A DNA stretch of 43,254 bases, from contig JAQUKG010000003.1 in NCBI GenBank assembly GCA_028719245.1, positions 1-43,254 of the forward strand, written 5' to 3'. Under the pieces are notes generated by a model that saw nothing but the letters and a program-made list of their open reading frames with translations, ran no database searches and was not told the DNA's origin. Below are positions 14,957 to 25,209 of this stretch, piece after piece (within the stretch, counting starts at the first letter, position 1; every line of letters starts with the position of its first letter). This DNA is from Candidatus Altimarinota bacterium (lineage in GTDB: Bacteria; Patescibacteriota; Gracilibacteria; BD1-5; UBA6164). Position numbers and translations under genes: made by a program.

Positions 14957-15000
14957 TTATAATTTAATACTATATTAAATAAAAATCAATGTTTTAAAAA

Positions 15001-15028
15001 TTGACTTTAAAATTTTGTTTGCTAAAAT
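15001..15028 (+). promoter_or_regulatory. Predicted promoter of the FMN-binding lipoprotein gene
   Basis: TTGACT, 16 bases, TAAAAT, 34 bases before the ATG. Confidence 0.55.
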
Positions 15029-15062
15029 CAAAACTACTTTTATATATATAACTATTTTTTTT

Positions 15063-15557
15063 ATGAAAAAAATTACTACTTTAGCTATATTACCTTTAAT
15101 GGCATTGGCATCTTGCTCTAAGAATGAAGAAAAAGTTGAAACTCCAAAAAATACTCCTATAGAAACCACTCAACAAACTACTCCAGAAGTTGCTACTCCT
15201 ACAGAAGTTACAAATTCATGAACAGAAACACAAGAAATATTAAATCAAAATATTTCTACTTGAATTACTAATGAATCTTGAGTTTCTATAAAAGAATTTA
15301 AATTAACTTATAATTTGCCAGATGGTAAACCATTAAACTTTAATGGTAATTTAGAAATAGAGTGATGAAAAATTAAATCAGTTAATTTTCCTGAATATGA
15401 CTTAATAAATGATCAATCTTATGAAGTTAAATTTGCTCAGAAATTACAAAGTGATATCGTTTGAAAAGAAATAAAATGATTACAATATGATGGTATGAGT
15501 TGAGCAAGTCTTACAACTAATGCATTTAATGAATTTTTAAATACTATAAATAAATAA
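15063..15557 (+). CDS. FMN-binding lipoprotein, predicted to carry covalent flavin
   Basis: A 164-residue exported protein. The N-terminus has a short basic start, a hydrophobic stretch and the lipobox LASC with Cys18, so it should be lipid-anchored outside the membrane. A Thr/Pro/Glu-rich linker follows (about residues 24-60). The C-terminal half is an FMN-binding domain of the NqrC/RnfG type. Its last part, YDGMSGASLTTNAF, contains D143-G-M-S-G-A-S149, the Dxx(S/T)GA(T/S) site at which ApbE attaches FMN by a phosphoester bond. The acceptor here would be Ser149 where most family members have Thr. The next gene is an ApbE, which supports the assignment. It has its own promoter and terminator, so it may be expressed independently of the downstream genes. 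Confidence 0.82.
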
Positions 15558-15566
15558 TAAAATTCT

Positions 15567-15598
15567 AAAAATTCCAAAGATTAATCTTTGGAATTTTT
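15567..15598 (+). terminator. Terminator after the FMN-binding lipoprotein
   Basis: ATTCCAAAGA / TCTTTGGAAT stem around a TTAA loop, flanked by A and T runs. Confidence 0.8.
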
Positions 15599-15602
15599 AA
15601 TT

Positions 15603-15624
15603 AATTCATTTTTAATTAAGGTTT
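15603..15624 (+). promoter_or_regulatory. Shared motif, copy 1, at the promoter of apbE1-regulator-kinase
   Basis: AATTCATTTT, three bases (TAA), then TTAAGGTTT. The same sequence, differing only in those three bases, occurs at 18483-18504. It abuts a possible promoter (TTGAGA at 15624-15629, 17 bases, TATTAT at 15647-15652). As the two copies precede the two operons of one functional cluster that also encodes an OmpR-type regulator, it is a candidate operator. Confidence 0.5.
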
Positions 15625-15664
15625 TGAGATTATATTATTAATAATTTATTATTTAATAATTTTT

Positions 15665-16558
15665 ATGAATTATAAAAAATCTTTTTTCTTAATGTGAACA
15701 AATATAGAAATTATAATTAATAGTGAAATAAATATTGAAAAAGAAATCTATGAAGCTTTTTGAATATTTTATTCATATGAATTAGAATTTTCTAGGTTTT
15801 TAAAAAATTCAACCCTAAGCTTACTTAACCAAAATAAAACCTTGGAAGTAAGTTCTAGGTTTTTAGATGTTTTTAATTTATGTAAAGAAATTTATAATAT
15901 TACCAATTGATTTTTTAATCCACTTATAAATTTATCAAATATTTGATATTCATCTAATTTTGAAGATAATAATTTTTCAAAAACATCTATTCTAAATAAT
16001 TTAAATATGGATGAAATAAAAATTGAATGAAATTTTATAAATCTTTTACAAGATCAAAATTTGGATTTTGGTTGAATTGTAAAATGATATTGTGTTGATA
16101 TAGTAGCTGAATATTTACTTGAAAAATGATGTAAAGACTTTATAATTAATGCTTGATGAGATATATATACTTCTTGAAATAATAATTGAAAAAAATGGAT
16201 AATTTGAATAGATAATCCATTTATTCCAGATACATTAATTTGATCAATAGAATTAGAAAACAAATCTATATCAACTTCTTGAAGTTATAAAAGAAATTGG
16301 AAAATTAAGTGAAATAATTATCATCACATAATAAATCCAAATAATTATAGTTCTTGTGAAAATGAAATTATAAGTTTAAGTTTAATTTCTCAAAAAACAT
16401 ATATAACTGATACTTATGCAACAGCTTGTTTTAATATGTGAATAGAAAAATCCTTAAAATTCTTAGAACGAAATAATATAGATTCACTTATTATTTGAAC
16501 TGATTCTAAAATGTATACGAGTAAATGATTTAATAACTATAATTTTTTAATTTTTTAA
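15665..16558 (+). CDS. apbE: FAD:protein FMN transferase (first ApbE)
   Basis: Splits FAD and attaches the FMN part to Thr or Ser in target proteins. The 297 residues show the ApbE opening LMGTNIEI, then EFSRFLKNSTLSLLN (the usual SRF..SS.L.R.N), the FAD-site motif LDFGGIVKGY (D134 to Y142), INAGGDIY, and the C-terminal Mg-site region YITDTYATACFNMG. Several of the glycines are TGA codons. No N-terminal signal peptide is evident: the protein starts almost directly with the catalytic fold, unlike the many exported or lipid-anchored ApbEs. Targets are presumably the FMN-binding proteins at 15063-15557 and 18594-20156. It heads a tight operon with the response regulator (5-base gap) and kinase. 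Confidence 0.92.
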
Positions 16559-16563
16559 TAATT

Positions 16564-17208
16564 ATGAATATTTTAATTATAGAAGATAATATAGATATTT
16601 CTCAAAATATTAAAAATATATTAGAACTTGATTGATATAAAATCACTCAAATTTTTGATTGAAAATTATGATTAGAAAAGGCTTTACAGTGAGATTTTGA
16701 TATGATAGTTATTGATCTTATGCTTCCAAATCTTAATTGAATGAAAGTTTGTAAAGGTATTAGAGAGAAAAAAGATACACCAATTATTATTATTACAGCA
16801 AAACAAGATGATGATGATAAAATATTATTATTTGAATCCTGAGCAGATGATTACATAGTAAAACCTTTTAAAATTAGAGAATTAGAAATGAGAATAAAAG
16901 CCATTTTTAAAAGATTAAAGAAAGATATAATTATAAAAATAGATAATATTTCTATAGATTTAAAAACAAAAACTATTCAAAAAAATTGAAAAGAAGTAAA
17001 TTTGAAATTAAAAGAATTTCAGGTTTTAGAATATATATTAAATAATAAAACTGTTTCTAGAACCGATTTAATTGAATATATCTGGTGATGAGAAGATTTA
17101 TTTTTTTGAGATAATAATTTAGATGTTTATATATCTTGCATAAGAAAAAAGTTAAATAAAGATATAATAAAAACCATAAAATGATATGGGTATTCTATAA
17201 AAAATTAA
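16564..17208 (+). CDS. OmpR/PhoB-family response regulator
   Basis: A 214-residue two-domain regulator. The receiver has the acidic pair E7/D8, phospho-acceptor D51 (VIDLMLP), the Thr switch in IIIITAKQ and the VKPF lysine near residue 101. The C-terminal winged helix (about 125-214) includes LKLKEFQVLEYIL, VSRTDLIEYIWG and the closing IKTIKGYGYSIKN, typical of the OmpR/PhoB DNA-binding domain. It lies five bases after apbE and two bases before the kinase, so the three are co-transcribed. Its most likely targets are the flavin electron-transfer genes, where a 22-bp motif occurs twice. Which signal it answers to is not visible. Confidence 0.93.
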
Positions 17209-17210
17209 AT

Positions 17211-18467
17211 ATGAAATTAAAAACTTGAACAAAAATATCATTTATATTTTCTATTTTTACATTTTTAATCATATTTCTTCTACTTTTATTAATAAATATA
17301 TATACTTTTTTAAACTGGTATAATAGTGAAAAAAAGGAAATATCTGAGAAACTTATTAATGAATATGAAGAAATAATAAAAGAGTATAAATTAATTGAAA
17401 ATCAAAAAATAAAATTATTAGATGAGCTGGAAGAAAAAAAATGATTTATATGAGATATTACTTGAAATTATAGTTTAATATTTTTAGATATATATAAATA
17501 TAAAGAAAAAGTTTATATAATGAATTTTAAAGATTCTAAATTTTGAAGAATATATATTCCTTATGATATAACAAACCATTTTAATAACCAAATTGATTTA
17601 TTATACATATCATTTTTTTGACTGTTATTTTTTGGAATTTTTTCTTTTTTTATTTCAAAATACCTATTTATTAAATTTGCATTAAAAGATATTTTTTTAC
17701 TGGTTAAAAAAATTCAAGAAATAGATTTGAATAATATAAAAAAAATAAATTTAAATTTAAAACAAGATGATGAAATATATGAAATAATCAATAATATAAA
17801 TAGATTTTTAGAACTTATAAAAGAAAACACAAATAATTTAAAAGAATTTAATACGAATGTTGCTCACGAATTTAAAACTCCGCTAATGATTATTTCAAGC
17901 CAAATTGAATATAATATTAAAACTGGAAAATATAAAGATTGACTTGAAAAAATAGAAAAACAAATTGATATTTTAAATGAATTATTAGAAACTTTTTTAT
18001 TTATATCAAAAGTTCAAAATTCAAATTTAAGTATAAAACTAAAAGATATAAACATTTCAGATTTAATAAATAATATTGTTTGAGACTTAGAAAAAATTTA
18101 TATTTCAAAAAATATAAAAATCACCAAAAATATAAATGATGATATTTTACTTAACACAGATGAAAAATTATTTCTATTAATTATAAAAAACTTAATTGAT
18201 AATTCATTAAAATATACTCCTGAGTTTTGAAAAATAGAAATATTTTTAGATGAAAAATCTTTTAAAATAAAAGATAACTGAATTTGAATTAGTAAAGATA
18301 AATTAGAAAATATTTTTGATAATTTTTATAGAGAAACAAATGATGAAAAATGATTTGGTATTTGATTAAATATAGTAAAAAAAGTTATTGATATATTAAA
18401 TTATAAAATATTAATAAAAACTCAAAAATGAATTTGAAGTGAATTTGAAATAAAATTTCAAAAATAA
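17211..18467 (+). CDS. Sensor histidine kinase, partner of the preceding regulator
   Basis: A 418-residue membrane kinase. Two hydrophobic helices (about residues 9-35 and 130-155) flank an extracytoplasmic segment of roughly 95 residues with no fold I recognise, which is probably the sensor. The cytoplasmic part has the H box NVAHEFKTPL with H219, the N box LIDNSLKYTP, the G1 box DNGIGIS, an F-box-like FDNFYRE and the G2 box GFGIGLNIVKKV. This is the usual HisKA plus HATPase_c layout. Most of the conserved glycines are TGA. The start is two bases after the regulator's stop. The sensor domain lies outside the cell, where the flavoproteins act, so it may report on envelope redox state; that is inference. 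Confidence 0.92.
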
Positions 18468-18482
18468 ACCAAAAAGTTTTTA

Positions 18483-18504
18483 AATTCATTTTGGGTTAAG
18501 GTTT
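18483..18504 (+). promoter_or_regulatory. Shared motif, copy 2, upstream of the FMN-binding/reductase operon
   Basis: AATTCATTTT, GGG, then TTAAGGTTT: 19 of 22 positions identical to 15603-15624. It lies 16 bases after the kinase stop and about 30 bases upstream of a possible promoter at 18537-18565. Confidence 0.5.
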
Positions 18505-18510
18505 ATAAAT

Positions 18511-18560
18511 AAAATCTATTTAAGAAATAAATTTACTTGCTTGTTTCTTAAATAGATTTT
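18511..18560 (+). terminator. Long perfect hairpin between kinase and FMN-binding gene
   Basis: A 17-bp uninterrupted stem (AAAATCTATTTAAGAAA and its exact complement) with a 16-base loop. The right arm ends in only four T, so it may terminate the kinase operon weakly. Its loop and right arm also contain the predicted promoter of the next operon, so a structural or operator role is possible. Confidence 0.55.
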
Positions 18561-18565
18561 ATACT
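18537..18565 (+). promoter_or_regulatory. Possible promoter of the FMN-binding/reductase/apbE operon
   Basis: TTGCTT in the hairpin loop, 17 bases, TATACT at the foot of the right arm, 28 bases before the ATG. Confidence 0.4.
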
Positions 18566-18593
18566 ATTTACTTAATTTAATAACTATTTCTAT

Positions 18594-20156
18594 ATGAAAA
18601 TCAAAAAACCATTGATTAAAGTTATACAAATTTGAACATTATTTGTATTTACATCTTTATCATTTTTATGAATTATTTCTTTTTCAAATCCTGAAATAAG
18701 TAATTTTTGGACAATAAAAAAAATAAATATAACTGCTAAATATATTAGTTATGCAGATGATGACGATGATGATAATTATAATAGAAATTATGGTAATTAT
18801 GATAACAATGACGATAACGACGATGACAATGATAATAACGACGATGATGATGATAATGATGTAAAACCTACTACAACTACAAGAAATTCTATAATAACAA
18901 ATACTAATACTAATAATACAACACAAACTTGAATAACAACATTGGCAAATACTAATTCTTGAACTACTAATACATCCAATTGTACTACTGTTACAAAAAC
19001 TATTTATGATACAGTAACTAGTGCATCTTGAACTACATCTCAAGTTCCAAGGCAGGTTGTAAGTGAAGTTTGTGGTACTACTACATCTATTAATAATATA
19101 ACAACTAATTCATGAACTATTAATAAAAATACAATACCAGTAAATATTAATATATATAGTGATTGAACATATATTTGAAATTGAAAATACTTATATACTT
19201 GATGAAGTATTAATTATTCAGTTGAAATTATTATTTCTTCTTGAAAAATTACAAGTGCAAAATTTATAAGTTTTACACAATCTTGAAATTGACTTTACAC
19301 TAGAGAACAAGCTGATATTAAATTATCTAACATTGTAGCTACTCAAAATACAGTTATTGACACAGTTTCTTGAGCATCAGGAACATCAAAAGCTATACAA
19401 GATGCTATAGATGATGCTTTATTAAAAGCAAAGAAAATAACAAATTCACCAACTACTATACAAAATATACAAACAAATACTAGTTCTACTAATACATGAG
19501 TTATTGATAATAGTAAAGTAAAAAATATTATTAGTAATGTTTTGTCTACTTGATTAACTGAGGCAGAAAAAAATAAAGTTAATTTACTAATAGATAATAA
19601 ACTTAATATTTATAATACTAATGAGAAAAAGATAAATAAACTTAATCCTATATTATCAAAATTAAAAAGATTAATTGTTAATCTAAAAATTTCAAAAACA
19701 AAATTAGATAATGAAAGCGATATATTGAGAATTGAAGATAAAATAAATGTGTATATAGATGTTAAAGAAATTATTTCTACAAAAATTCAAAATCTAGAAT
19801 TACAAAATGATTTGACAAATAATAGTCTTTTAAATATAAATGATGTTGAATTATATACTGCTCCAAATTGAAAAGTATATACTATTATGTTTGAAAATGG
19901 AAAAGTTGTAATAAAAAAAGCTGATTGATCTTATGCAAAAGAAACTTTTATTACATTTGATGAAGCTAAAAAATATTTAGATATAAATGCTCCTAAAAAA
20001 GTTGTAGTAAAACCAGTAGTTACTAAAAAAACAACTACTACAAAAAAAATTATATCAAATACTCCAGCTAAAACTGTTACAACAACTCCAACTAAAACAA
20101 CTACTACCGTTGTAACACCAACTCCAGCAGTTGATACAACTACAAAGGCTAGTTAA
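18594..20156 (+). CDS. Exported FMN-binding protein with Asp/Asn-rich and Thr-rich regions
   Basis: A 520-residue exported protein. One N-terminal hydrophobic helix (about residues 13-31) serves as signal or anchor. It is followed by a very acidic Asp/Asn tract (about residues 50-86), then a Thr/Asn-rich linker with two Cys. The FMN-binding domain (about 180-275) starts YSDGTYIGNGKY and ends VIDTVSGASGTSKAIQDAI. D256-T-V-S-G-A-S262 is the flavin attachment site, again with Ser as predicted acceptor. A mainly helical segment (about 300-430) and a Thr/Pro/Lys-rich C-terminal tail follow, suggesting reach across the cell wall. It is first in an operon with the heme/rubredoxin reductase (16-base gap) and the second apbE. 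It should be the outer electron carrier of the system. Confidence 0.85.
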
Positions 20157-20172
20157 TTTAATTTAAATTATT

Positions 20173-21564
20173 ATGAATAAAATTATTACATATTTGAAAA
20201 CAATAATTGTTATGTTTTCTTTATTATCTATTATTGTTATTTTTTATCCATTTGAAACTTATAAAGAATTTTGAAGTATTTCTTGGAGTTTACTTTTGAT
20301 TGTAATGTTTTTAAGACCATTTAAGGATATTTTTCCTAAATGTAAAATTTTTAGGTTCTTATTAAAATTTAGAAGGGAAGTAGCAATATTAGTTTGAGTT
20401 TTCTGAATAGCTCATGTTATTTGATATATAAAAATAGCTTGATATGAAAGTATATTTGAAATTTTTACTGATAAATATGTTTGGAATTATAAATGAATGT
20501 TGTTTTGGTGAATGCTTTGATTTTTAGTTTCTATTCCACTTTTAATAACTTCAAATTGATTTTTTACTCATTTATTTTGAAAATATTGGAAGACACTTCA
20601 AAGACTTTCATATTTTATGTTTTTATTTGTAGCTGTGCATATTTTTTTAATAGAATGAGAAATATGAACTTTAGTTATTTTTTGAATTTGGCTTATATTA
20701 TTTATTATAGCTTATTTTAAAAATAATAAAATTAAACAAAATTTATCTACTTGACCAAAATGGCTTTGTGTTCCTTGTGGCTATATTTATGATGAAAATA
20801 TTTGAGATCCTGATTCTTGAATAGTTCCTTGAACTAAATTTGAAGATATTCCTGATAATTGGAGATGTCCTGTTTGTGGAGTTTGAAAAAGTGATTTTAT
20901 TCTTTTAGAAAATGAAATAGAAAAAAATGAAAGTAGTATAGTTTCTTTAGAATATTTAAATAGTGATACAATAGAATTAAAATTGGATTTAAAAAAAGAT
21001 TTAAATTATATTTGCTGACAATTTTTAACTTTTGTTTTAACTGATGAAATTGGAGAATTTAATAGATCTTATTCTATAGCTAACAAAGAGTGAAATATTT
21101 ATACTTTTTTGATAAAATTAAAACAAGATGGAAGAGCTTGAAAATTATTTAGAATTAAAAATGTTTGAGATATTTTGTGATATACAAATATTTCTTGAAA
21201 ATTTAATTTACAAAATACTACTAATCCAAAAGTATTTATAGCAACTTGAACATGACTTGCTCCAATTTATTCTATGTTATTAAATACTCCAGAAAATATT
21301 AGTAAAAAATTATATTTTTGAGTTGCAACTAAAACTGATTTATTTTATGTAGAAAAATTAAAAAATATTAAAAACTTAGAATTAAAAATTTGTGTTTCAA
21401 GAGAAGAAGTTGAGTTTTGTCATTTTTGAAGAATTGATTTATCAAATGATATATTTGAAGAAAATACTGAATTTTATATTTGCTGAAATCCTTGAGTTGT
21501 AAAAACAGCTATAGCAACTTTAGAGTCAAAATGACATAAAAATATTTATAGGGAAGAATTTTAA
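20173..21564 (+). CDS. Ferric-reductase-like heme membrane domain fused to rubredoxin and FAD/NAD(P)H reductase
   Basis: A 463-residue single-chain electron-transfer protein. Residues 1-190 form about six hydrophobic helices resembling the MsrQ/YedZ ferric-reductase-like domain. Candidate heme ligands are H81 (GIAHVIGY), H133 and H156; the position matching the second conserved MsrQ His (LHRL) is Q143 here. Residues 195-240 are a rubredoxin with iron ligands C199, C202, C232 and C235 (CVPCGYIYDE and CPVCG). Residues about 255-463 are a ferredoxin-reductase module with the FAD motif RSYSIAN (298-304), the NAD(P) motif ATGTGLAP (357-364) and CGNP (437-440). It should carry electrons from cytoplasmic NAD(P)H through FAD and iron to membrane heme and out to FMN proteins. 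It sits between an FMN-binding protein and an ApbE, 3 bases before the latter. Confidence 0.9.
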
Positions 21565-21567
21565 AAT

Positions 21568-22440
21568 ATGAAAAAATTTGAATATTCTTTTAGTGCTTTG
21601 TGAACTGGTTGTTTAATATCAGTAATAAATGAAAATGATGAAAATTTAAATAAAATAATAAATAATTGTTATAATAAAACTCTTAGCTTTGAACAAGAGT
21701 TTTCTAGATTTAGAACAGATTCTGTTTTATCTAAGTTAAATAAAGAAAAAAGACTAAAAGTTAGTGAAGATTTTTTATCTTTGGTTTATAAATCAAGAGA
21801 AATTTACAAATTAACTAATGCTTATTTTAACCCACTTATTGATGTTAGAAAAATTTGATATATAAATGATTTTGATAAAAAAGAATTTAGAAAATTAGAA
21901 ATAAATGAAGATTTGAGTTTTGATAAGGTGAAAAATTATTGAGATGAACTTGAAATTTGAGAAAATATGAATTTAGATTTTTGAAGTATAGCAAAATGAT
22001 TTTTAGCTCAAAAATTAAGTGATTATTTAACTGAAAAATGATACAAAAATAATTTAGTAAATTTATGATGAGACATTTATGCTAGCTGATTAAATCTTGA
22101 ATGAAAAAAATGGCAAATAGCAATTTCGTCACCTTTTTTAGAAAATGAAAATATTGATATAATTGAAATTTCAAATGAAAGTATATCAACTTCCTGAATT
22201 TATAAAAGAAAATGGAAAATTGACTGAAAAAAATATCATCATATAAGAAATCCTTTTTCAAGCAAAACTCAAAATGAAATTGTTTCAGCAAGTATTATTC
22301 ATCAATTTTGATATATGACTGACTGATTAGCTACTTGAGTAATTGCTATGTGAAAACAAAAAGCTATAGATTTTTGTAAAAATAGTAATATAAAATTTAT
22401 GTTTATTTTTAATGATTGAAAAATTTTAAAAGAAATTTAG
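21568..22440 (+). CDS. apbE: FAD:protein FMN transferase (second ApbE)
   Basis: A 290-residue ApbE paralogue. It shows ALGTGCLIS, SFEQEFSRFRTDSVLSKLN, LDFGSIAKGF, LVNLGGDIY and MTDGLATGVIAMG in the canonical order. Like the first ApbE at 15665-16558 it begins directly with the fold and has no signal peptide. The two are clearly related yet diverged, so they may serve different targets or be a local duplication. It begins 3 bases after the reductase and ends in TAG. The role is to load FMN onto the exported flavoproteins of the cluster. No clear terminator follows; the gene converges on the MBL hydrolase 43 bases away. Confidence 0.92.
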
Positions 22441-24087: not shown

Positions 24088-25209
24088 ATGATGCCATCAG
24101 AAACTCTAGCTTGAACTCCAGAATCTTTAGCTTGAACTCCAGAATCTTTAGCTTGAACTCCAGGGTCTTTACATTTAGAATATGCTAGAAGATTTACGGA
24201 TGTTTTAAAATGATTAGAAGAATATAGCAATCTGAAATGAAGGGAAATTAAAATACTGAAAATAACAGAGGTTTTATCTTTAAAAAAAGTGTTAAAAGAC
24301 TGAAATATTATATGTGAAGTAAAAGATGAAAATTGGAATACTTGCTTTGTAGATCCTAGCACAATGAATAAAGTTGATATTACTCCAAATGAAATTGAAA
24401 CTGTAGATGATTATGAAAGAATAGGAGAATATAATAATTTGGTTTGAAAATATGTTTTATCAAAAATAGTAAGTATAGTATCAGTTAGAAAAACAAATTG
24501 AAAAACGGTTATTTGAGTTGATATTAAGTGAAGAAAAACAATTCTTATTGAATTAGATTCATTAGAACCATTATTGTTATGATGAAAACCTGTTTATGAA
24601 GTATGAAATGAGGAGAAAAAATTATGAAGTAGAAATTATATTGAAGTTAAATGAAATATTATTTGAAGTGATTTTAATAATGCAATTTTAGATACTGAAA
24701 CTTTAAAACCTTTTAGAGTTGGTAGAAATGGTGATATAATTACAAAAGTTCATTCTGAATATACAGTTTTATGAAGAAAATTTATAAAAGTTAGTATAAA
24801 TAATGAATTTAGACCAAATACTTATACTGAGAAAGATATTATATTGGATGCAAAAACTTTAGAACCAATTATGCATTGAGAGGAGTATGTTTTAAAAATT
24901 GAAGGACATCATTTAAATTGAAAACAAGTTTTAAAATATTGATTATCAAGACAAAGGTATATTTTAGTAAAACCAGAATATTTAGAAAAATTAGATTTAC
25001 ATATTGAATGATATTCTGAACCAATTGAATATTTTGAAGATTGTCCTTGAAAGACATATTGTAAAGCAGTAATATGAAATAGTCATATTACTGTTGATAA
25101 AAATACTTTAGGAAAAACAAAACCTAGTGATAATACCAAAGAGAATTTTCAGAACCCTAAAAAAAGTGGATGGTTTTTTGGAGTATTTAAAAAATTACTT
25201 TGAAGGTAA
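24088..25209 (+). CDS. Hypothetical protein with N-terminal AGTPESL repeats
   Basis: I do not recognise this 373-residue protein. After MMPSET the N-terminus holds three copies of a seven-residue unit, (L)AGTPES, encoded by an exact 21-bp tandem repeat. The rest looks beta-rich, with repeated patterns such as DIxxxxKTxIELDSLEPL, YIEVKGNIIGSD and FIKVSINNEF followed by TLEP or TLKP. These suggest several copies of a small beta unit of about 60-70 residues (near residues 105-175, 190-255 and 265-340), each ending D/K-T/S-LEP. The C-terminus is basic with a short hydrophobic stretch (WFFGVFKKLLGR). There is no signal peptide. It has its own promoter; thrC follows but has a separate promoter. Confidence 0.7.
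24107..24169 (+). repeat. Three tandem 21-bp units inside the orphan gene
   Basis: The unit TAGCTTGAACTCCAGAATCTT occurs at 24107, 24128 and 24149. The first two are identical and the third differs at two bases (AA to GG). Each encodes the frame of L-A-G-T-P-E-S, so copy number can change without breaking the protein. Confidence 0.9.

Follow-up and report, generated by a model that had tools for sequence, protein, structure and literature searches.

Candidate OmpR/PhoB-type operator boxes upstream of two flavin operons in Candidatus Altimarinota bacterium

Genes and repeated motif at the locus

The window analyzed here is the whole 43,254-nucleotide (nt) stretch at positions 1 to 43,254 of contig JAQUKG010000003.1 from Candidatus Altimarinota bacterium (GCA_028719245.1), and our subject is a short motif that occurs in it twice and may be the operator of a two-component regulator. 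The genome decodes TGA as glycine, and genetic code 25 gives complete genes across the region. The motif, AATTCATTTT-nnn-TTAAGGTTT, lies at 15603-15624 and 18483-18504 with 0 mismatches over 19 defined positions, and its central bases are TAA in copy 1 and GGG in copy 2. Copy 1 is intergenic and upstream of the genes for ApbE1, a response regulator and a histidine kinase (15665-18467), and copy 2 is intergenic and upstream of those for an FMN_bind protein, a ferric-reductase-rubredoxin protein and ApbE2 (18594-22440). Positions and identity are exactly those of the original prediction, and its placement of the copies before two flavin operons holds with the code 25 genes and agrees with Pfam. 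Its description of the motif stands for the identity and fails for the 10-3-9 block, which is better read as an 18-nt direct repeat of the OmpR/PhoB kind (half-sites of 7 nt around a spacer of 4 nt, 7-4-7), followed by a -10 hexamer. The genes and boxes are as follows.

15603..15620, + strand: predicted operator box 1, AATTCAT-TTTT-AATTAAG, 7-4-7 direct repeat with the top matrix score in the window
15665..16558, + strand: ApbE1, flavin mononucleotide (FMN) transferase family (Pfam ApbE, 1.9e-59)
16564..17208, + strand: response regulator of the OmpR/PhoB family, proposed ligand of both boxes (Pfam Response_reg, 3.8e-27; Trans_reg_C, 3.5e-16)
17211..18467, + strand: sensor histidine kinase, the regulator's partner (Pfam HisKA, HATPase_c)
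18483..18500, + strand: predicted operator box 2, AATTCAT-TTTG-GGTTAAG
18594..20156, + strand: secreted FMN_bind protein with an Asp-rich stretch and the C-terminal tail DTTTKAS (Pfam FMN_bind, 1.4e-6)
20173..21564, + strand: membrane reductase with a ferric-reductase-like transmembrane domain, rubredoxin, and FAD and NAD domains (Pfam)
21568..22440, + strand: ApbE2, FMN transferase family (Pfam ApbE, 7.6e-53)

The regulator has the receiver with phospho-acceptor Asp and the Trans_reg_C winged helix of the OmpR/PhoB family, and D51, T78 and K100 are invariant in an alignment of seven such regulators. Four further homologues are encoded in its own genome (G000). Both copies contain two 7-nt half-sites with an 11-bp period, which agree with each other at 5/7 positions in site 1. 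The half-sites, AATTCAT and (AA/GG)TTAAG, are not those of the pho box proper (CTGTCAT). By its sequence the window box is a hybrid, with a first half of the family type (TTCA) and a second half of the general type (TTAAG), as compared with related loci below.

Identity between the copies counts for little here: 3.5-4 pairs with 10-3-9 identity are expected per Markov shuffle of the window, so that a 19-position match is not significant by itself in such AT-rich DNA. When only the 2,238 intergenic bases are considered, 0.27 such pairs are expected, and one or more turn up in 13.7% of 1000 shuffles. Because the identity is close to chance, the case rests on conservation in relatives. Repeat identity as evidence was dropped; the 62 exact 10-3-9 matches of the window are mostly hairpins plus one tandem array, with dispersed pairs at chance level.

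The motif is not a dispersed repeat. The full assembly (1.35 Mb, 113 contigs) holds 2 exact copies, both in the window, and none elsewhere. Allowing up to three mismatches gives 23 matches vs 18 for a reversed-pattern control. Both 2-mismatch sites are inside open reading frames, and among the 2- and 3-mismatch and relaxed-pattern sites only three (C5, C24 and C40) are intergenic, apart from the window copies, with all others within open reading frames. No -10 hexamer matching at 5/6 positions was seen at a gap of 8-12 nt at C5 or C24. At C40 (3 mismatches), TATTAT stands at a gap of 10; no downstream gene is recognized there.

Conservation of the box and promoter geometry

The regulator was searched in 48 genomes of the family, 46 of which have a homologue at an E value of 1e-20 or better. 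Up to 20 kb around 29 of the better matches were read, and the seven proteins of the window were mapped onto them. A regulator of the same type is found in six genomes besides that of the window (G036, G007, G030, G031, G024 and G009). Its neighbors include ApbE in four of these genomes and the rubredoxin reductase likewise in four; the G007 contig stops after the regulator, and the stretch of G031 that was read shows neither gene. Nine sites occur in the six same-family loci (one each in L054, L056, L058 and L059, two in L060 and three in L057). Their 18-nt box, AATTCA(T/G)-TTTW-ARTTCA(G/T), has the same 7-4-7 arrangement and 11-bp period, with halves agreeing at 5-7 of 7 positions, and in 6/6 loci boxes precede either the start of the flavin operon or a gene for a secreted protein located with it. 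A tenth pattern match, on the minus strand inside the L058 regulator gene, was dropped. A weight matrix built solely from these nine sites of the relatives ranks site 1 first in the window on both strands (20.3 bits; 0.02 expected per shuffled window).

The 20 reductase loci compared from outside this regulator clade's clusters lack the box. They were taken after a search of 77 genomes of the order, 34 of which have the reductase. No box with two or fewer mismatches was found in any of the 20 within 250 nt upstream of the tested starts (225 nt in L174), and the best match, in L180, has 3 mismatches. The closest homologue of the whole cluster, in G035 (L167), has the FMN lipoprotein (71%), the FMN_bind protein (65%), the reductase (66%) and ApbE2 (59%), with no ApbE1-regulator-kinase block and no box. 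G023 and G024 belong to one genus; G024 has regulator, kinase and box, and G023 is without both yet has an FMN_bind-like protein, the reductase and ApbE. G035 and G023 are close to natural deletions. Other 11-bp direct repeats were observed upstream of the carrier gene in reductase clusters without the regulator, namely ATTCTTACAATATTCTTAC in G035 (about 130-50 nt before 7212 of L167) and ATGTAAGATTAATGTAAG in G042 (about 95-75 nt before 5716 of L176). These are perhaps boxes of a different regulator.

We conclude, with a probability of about 0.83, that both copies are operator sites of the OmpR/PhoB-type regulator encoded between them, which would activate both operons when phosphorylated. 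That the motif is this regulator's binding site was already the guess of the original prediction, and it is supported by conservation in 6/6 relatives, by absence at 20/20 outside loci and by the lack of further exact copies in the genome. Neither many unrelated copies nor a loss of conservation in relatives, the two outcomes the prediction had named as fatal to it, was seen.

A -10 hexamer (at least 5/6) starts 9-10 nt past the box in 10 of 11 sites (the nine of the relatives and the two of the window), the site without one being L057a. As a control, 8,496 positions lying 40-110 nt ahead of gene starts were taken from these loci, and 8.1% of them have a -10 at a gap of 9-11. The predicted promoters and neighboring stem-loops in the window are the following.

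15566..15599, + strand: immediately ahead of box 1, the stem-loop/terminator of the FMN_bind lipoprotein gene that lies upstream (15 pairs, -16 kcal/mol, z -6.1; resembles a terminator on the minus strand)
15631..15636, + strand: -10 hexamer TATATT of predicted promoter P1, at a gap of 10 nt from box 1
18509..18562, + strand: 22-pair AT-rich stem-loop overlapping P2 (full stretch -24.7 kcal/mol, z -5.1)
18510..18515, + strand: -10 hexamer TAAAAT of predicted promoter P2, at a gap of 9 nt from box 2

Fixed spacing and conservation bear on whether the copies have any regulatory role. Chance similarity, or a repeat scar around an inserted apbE1-regulator-kinase block, is very improbable in our estimate. 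Such an origin would fit the frequency of 19-position matches in shuffled AT-rich DNA (3.5-4 pairs per window) and the fact that the copies flank a block missing from L167. However, the positions that the copies share form the half-sites of a box kept in relatives with different gene order, in one, two or three copies, and the -10 stands at a fixed distance from it in 10 of 11 sites.

Each box is placed at the -35 region of its predicted promoter. No recognizable -35 hexamer is present at the right distance from the -10, the bases there being ATTTTW, and this, together with the box geometry, points to an activator-dependent promoter. Pho boxes, too, end about 10 nt before the -10, which is their classical activator position. 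The same regulator could instead act as a repressor at the same sites, its dimer over -35 silencing both operons until a signal arrives; the box spans -35 to -24, and bound protein there could block polymerase. We consider repression unlikely, as the missing -35 hexamer is what is expected of activator-dependent promoters and the distance to the -10 is that of pho boxes.

The P2 -10 lies within the left arm of the 22-pair stem-loop. An RNA starting at 18519 would retain only a remnant fold (-7.7 kcal/mol), and read-through RNA from the kinase gene can form the whole stem. It is suggested that the same DNA may end the kinase operon and start the second operon; since the stem is without a clean U-run, its role as a terminator is only a suggestion. 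A riboswitch or other known RNA element was rejected, with 0 Rfam matches in window positions 15000-19000 at E values up to 1. The least probable of the alternatives is that the copies are a sigma-factor promoter element or a leader RNA element (e.g., an FMN riboswitch), for which the fixed -10 distance and the strong stem-loop after copy 2 could be cited. Against it stand the Rfam result, the finding of no other convincing box and promoter upstream of a recognized gene in the genome, and the fact that the box tracks one regulator clade.

Regulator clade and half-site types

The window regulator and the six same-type regulators form one clade with support 100/99 in a 36-row tree. A class-wide search of 353 genomes with the clade alignment added three members in family f5 (G104, G108 and G109), with which the clade stays at 100/99 (45-row tree). 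In G104 a secreted Asp-rich protein is encoded after the regulator, and its gene has AGTTAAG-GTTG-CGTTAAG, then 10 nt and TATAAT; the equivalent gene of G109 has tandem TTAAG-like halves at 11-bp steps, then 9 nt and TATAAT. No box was seen on the 3.3-kb contig of G108. The regulator alignment also matched 80 response regulators that, judged by titles and by identities of 29-42%, are generic ones from other phyla; these were not used.

Box types divide between the clade and its sister regulators. The exact TTCA/TTCA box with a -10 is present in 6/6 same-family clade loci and 0/21 sister-regulator loci. The exact TTAAG/TTAAG box with a -10 is present in 16/20 sister loci with Ser191 (not in L055, L061, L063 or L077), in the single His191 sister locus and in 1/6 TTCA loci. 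In shuffles the two box types, with one mismatch allowed, give 0.13 and 0.07 hits with a -10 per 10 kb. Among further non-clade loci of families f3 and f5, the exact TTAAG box occurs in 4/10 (L314, L317, L318 and L320) and was not found in L185, L315, L316, L319, L321 and L322. TTAAG-N6-TTAAG boxes with a -10 at 8-10 nt were observed in L062, L067, L070, L071, L073, L075, L076, L079 and L080, among others. This arrangement appears to be a general promoter grammar for regulators in this lineage. With one mismatch allowed, a TTAAG box lies within 200 bp of the two-component operon before it in 11/21 sister loci, right after it in 9/21 and in either place in 15/21. The window layout is alike, with one box before apbE1-regulator-kinase and one directly after the kinase gene.

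The half-site types can be set beside the recognition helix. The six TTCA regulators have Tyr at residue 191 and Ser at residue 192. The window regulator has Ser191 and Cys192, and it shares Ser191 with all three f5 members and most of the sister regulators. By our own matching, we take the equivalents of 191 and 192 in Mycobacterium tuberculosis PhoP to be Ser219 and Tyr220. Passages of PMC4832192 describe PhoP Ser219 and Tyr220 as touching a phosphate and a base.

Binding by the cognate regulator is suggested by the co-occurrence of box and clade and by covariation of the helix, and we regard the predicted assignment of the binding sites to it as strong. A different OmpR-family regulator of the genome might bind the boxes in its place, and the second half-site is of the TTAAG type found at sister-regulator loci. 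We think this improbable, slightly more so than repression: boxes containing TTCA occur only with this clade (the 6/6 Tyr191 loci and the window; exact TTCA/TTCA with a -10 in 0/21 sister loci) and are missing where the clade is missing.

Several further observations weigh against operators of the encoded regulator. The half-sites of site 2 match each other at only 3/7 positions, and site 2 ranks sixth in the window with the relatives' matrix (11.7 bits; 2.3 expected per shuffled window), mainly because of its GGG center and TTAAG half. What speaks for site 2 is that it equals site 1 at every half-site position outside the variable center, together with its place and its -10. The second half is TTAAG in both window copies, and the f1 relatives have TTCA. 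A possible competing promoter for the second operon, TTGCTT-17-TATACT, was read by eye near 18539-18567. TTAAGG repeats abound in these genomes, where other regulators use them; cross-binding may therefore occur, and the f5 sites are supportive rather than proof. In L058 the box comes after the regulator and kinase genes, not before them, and autoregulation through the box is therefore not universal. The relatives are also not independent, their sites being related by descent, and the quoted frequencies and nominal binomial value overstate significance. We gave up the idea that TTAAGG is specific to the clade: the ten genomes checked contain many such repeats, in numbers often no higher than for the reversed control, and these repeats are tied to sister regulators.

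Predicted regulon, carrier tails and known systems

Under control by the encoded activator, we infer the following course. The kinase would phosphorylate the regulator, which would then bind both boxes as a head-to-tail dimer on the two halves, at about -38 to -24 (over -35), with the -10 one turn downstream. P1 would drive apbE1, regulator and kinase in a positive, autoregulatory loop, and P2 the FMN-binding carrier, the membrane reductase and apbE2. A signal might in this way induce an export line that takes electrons from NAD(P)H and passes them through the membrane reductase to flavin carriers outside the cytoplasm. Such export is the role inferred for MsrQ-like flavinylation clusters in passages of PMC8238504.

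Small secreted proteins, several rich in Asp, Tyr or Arg, each have their own box at L060 7467-8057, L057 7523-8194, L058 12978-13712, L311 3161-3760 and L312 3042-3626. Only one of them has a PepSY-like match, a weak one. These proteins appear to be a second recurrent target of the regulator.

The proposed operator is of a known kind. Passages of PMC4832192 and PMC3264566 describe every known OmpR/PhoB site as a direct repeat, and PMC4832192 gives 7-bp motifs with a strict 4-bp spacer, the pho box CTGTCAT(A/T)4CTGTCAT and strict 4-bp spacing for M. tuberculosis PhoP. The window boxes share with the PhoB pho box and the PhoP sites two head-to-tail 7-bp half-sites and the 4-bp spacer. Unlike those, their half-sites are AATTCAT and AATTAAG rather than CTGTCAT or TCACAGC and differ from each other, and binding is predicted from sequence. 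RegX3 (best, 3.2e-37), KdpE and BasR/PmrA are homologues among solved structures with the same receiver and winged helix, but differ in targets, half-sites and organism. As with the MsrQ-like clusters (Meheust et al., 2021; PMC8238504), ApbE, an FMN_bind protein and a ferric-reductase-like membrane protein with an NAD domain occur together; in contrast, the window reductase has a fused rubredoxin, and the window cluster includes a dedicated two-component system with its own box. The main text of that paper has no mention of rubredoxin, the candidate phyla radiation (CPR) or Patescibacteria, and two-component systems appear only in a cited title. Listed titles and abstracts, as distinct from full texts, on Gracilibacteria, ApbE/flavinylation and two-component systems describe no operator or promoter for these bacteria.

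The half-site specificity series is an interesting addition to this known kind of operator: sequence alone allows a binding site, promoter geometry and a regulon to be predicted for one regulator, and the natural series (TTAAG, hybrid, TTCA) is testable against recognition-helix residues. The arrangement further suggests that, in these very small genomes, a signal turns on flavin-based extracytoplasmic electron export, which would not run all the time.

At their extreme C-terminus, otherwise dissimilar carriers and lipoproteins encoded in ApbE/reductase clusters have T-x-[ST]-x-A-S or a near variant. These tails include DTTTKAS in the window (20133-20156), DTTTSAS (L054), RTRTRAS (L056), RAITSAS (L057), NTTTSAS and DTKTRAS (L059), KTRSRAS (L060), DTTTKAS (L167) and TTTKAS and IRTRAS (L312), among others. 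The tail also occurs at L173, L176, L177, L184, L190 and L203, with one L177 protein ending in the canonical SGAS, and some tail lipoproteins are only about 56-66 residues long. A DNA pattern for the tail gives 17 matches in 47 genomes vs 6 for the reversed control. Real protein ends account for 14 of the 17, and 13 of these 14 are in loci with ApbE or the reductase. For two lipoproteins of G020 and one of G024, an ApbE gene adjoins, with no reductase on the 3 kb read. The ApbE motif D-x-x-[S/T]-G-A-[S/T], in which the last of seven residues is modified, works as a tag at protein ends according to passages of PMC12052999; apart from the Gly, and in several cases the Asp, the tails conform to this motif. 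Judged by their sequences, the tails are possibly natural C-terminal flavin tags.

Quite tentatively, we propose that the lineage with TGA as glycine uses one OmpR-type promoter grammar, TTAAG-N6-TTAAG with a -10 about 9-10 nt further on, from which the flavin regulator may have been re-addressed to TTCA half-sites by change at one or two residues of the recognition helix (191/192). The window hybrid would then be an intermediate. The regulon set apart in this way would make lipoproteins and secreted proteins whose C-terminal tails, [DN]-T-x-T-[KRS]-A-S, are natural flavin tags for the co-regulated ApbE.

Two minor features were noted elsewhere in the window. The small FMN_bind lipoprotein gene upstream of copy 1, which has its own hairpin, matches Pfam at an E value of 6e-4, below the cut-off. 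The gene at 24088-25209 starts with in-frame tandem 21-bp repeats (SLAGTPE) at 24107-24160.

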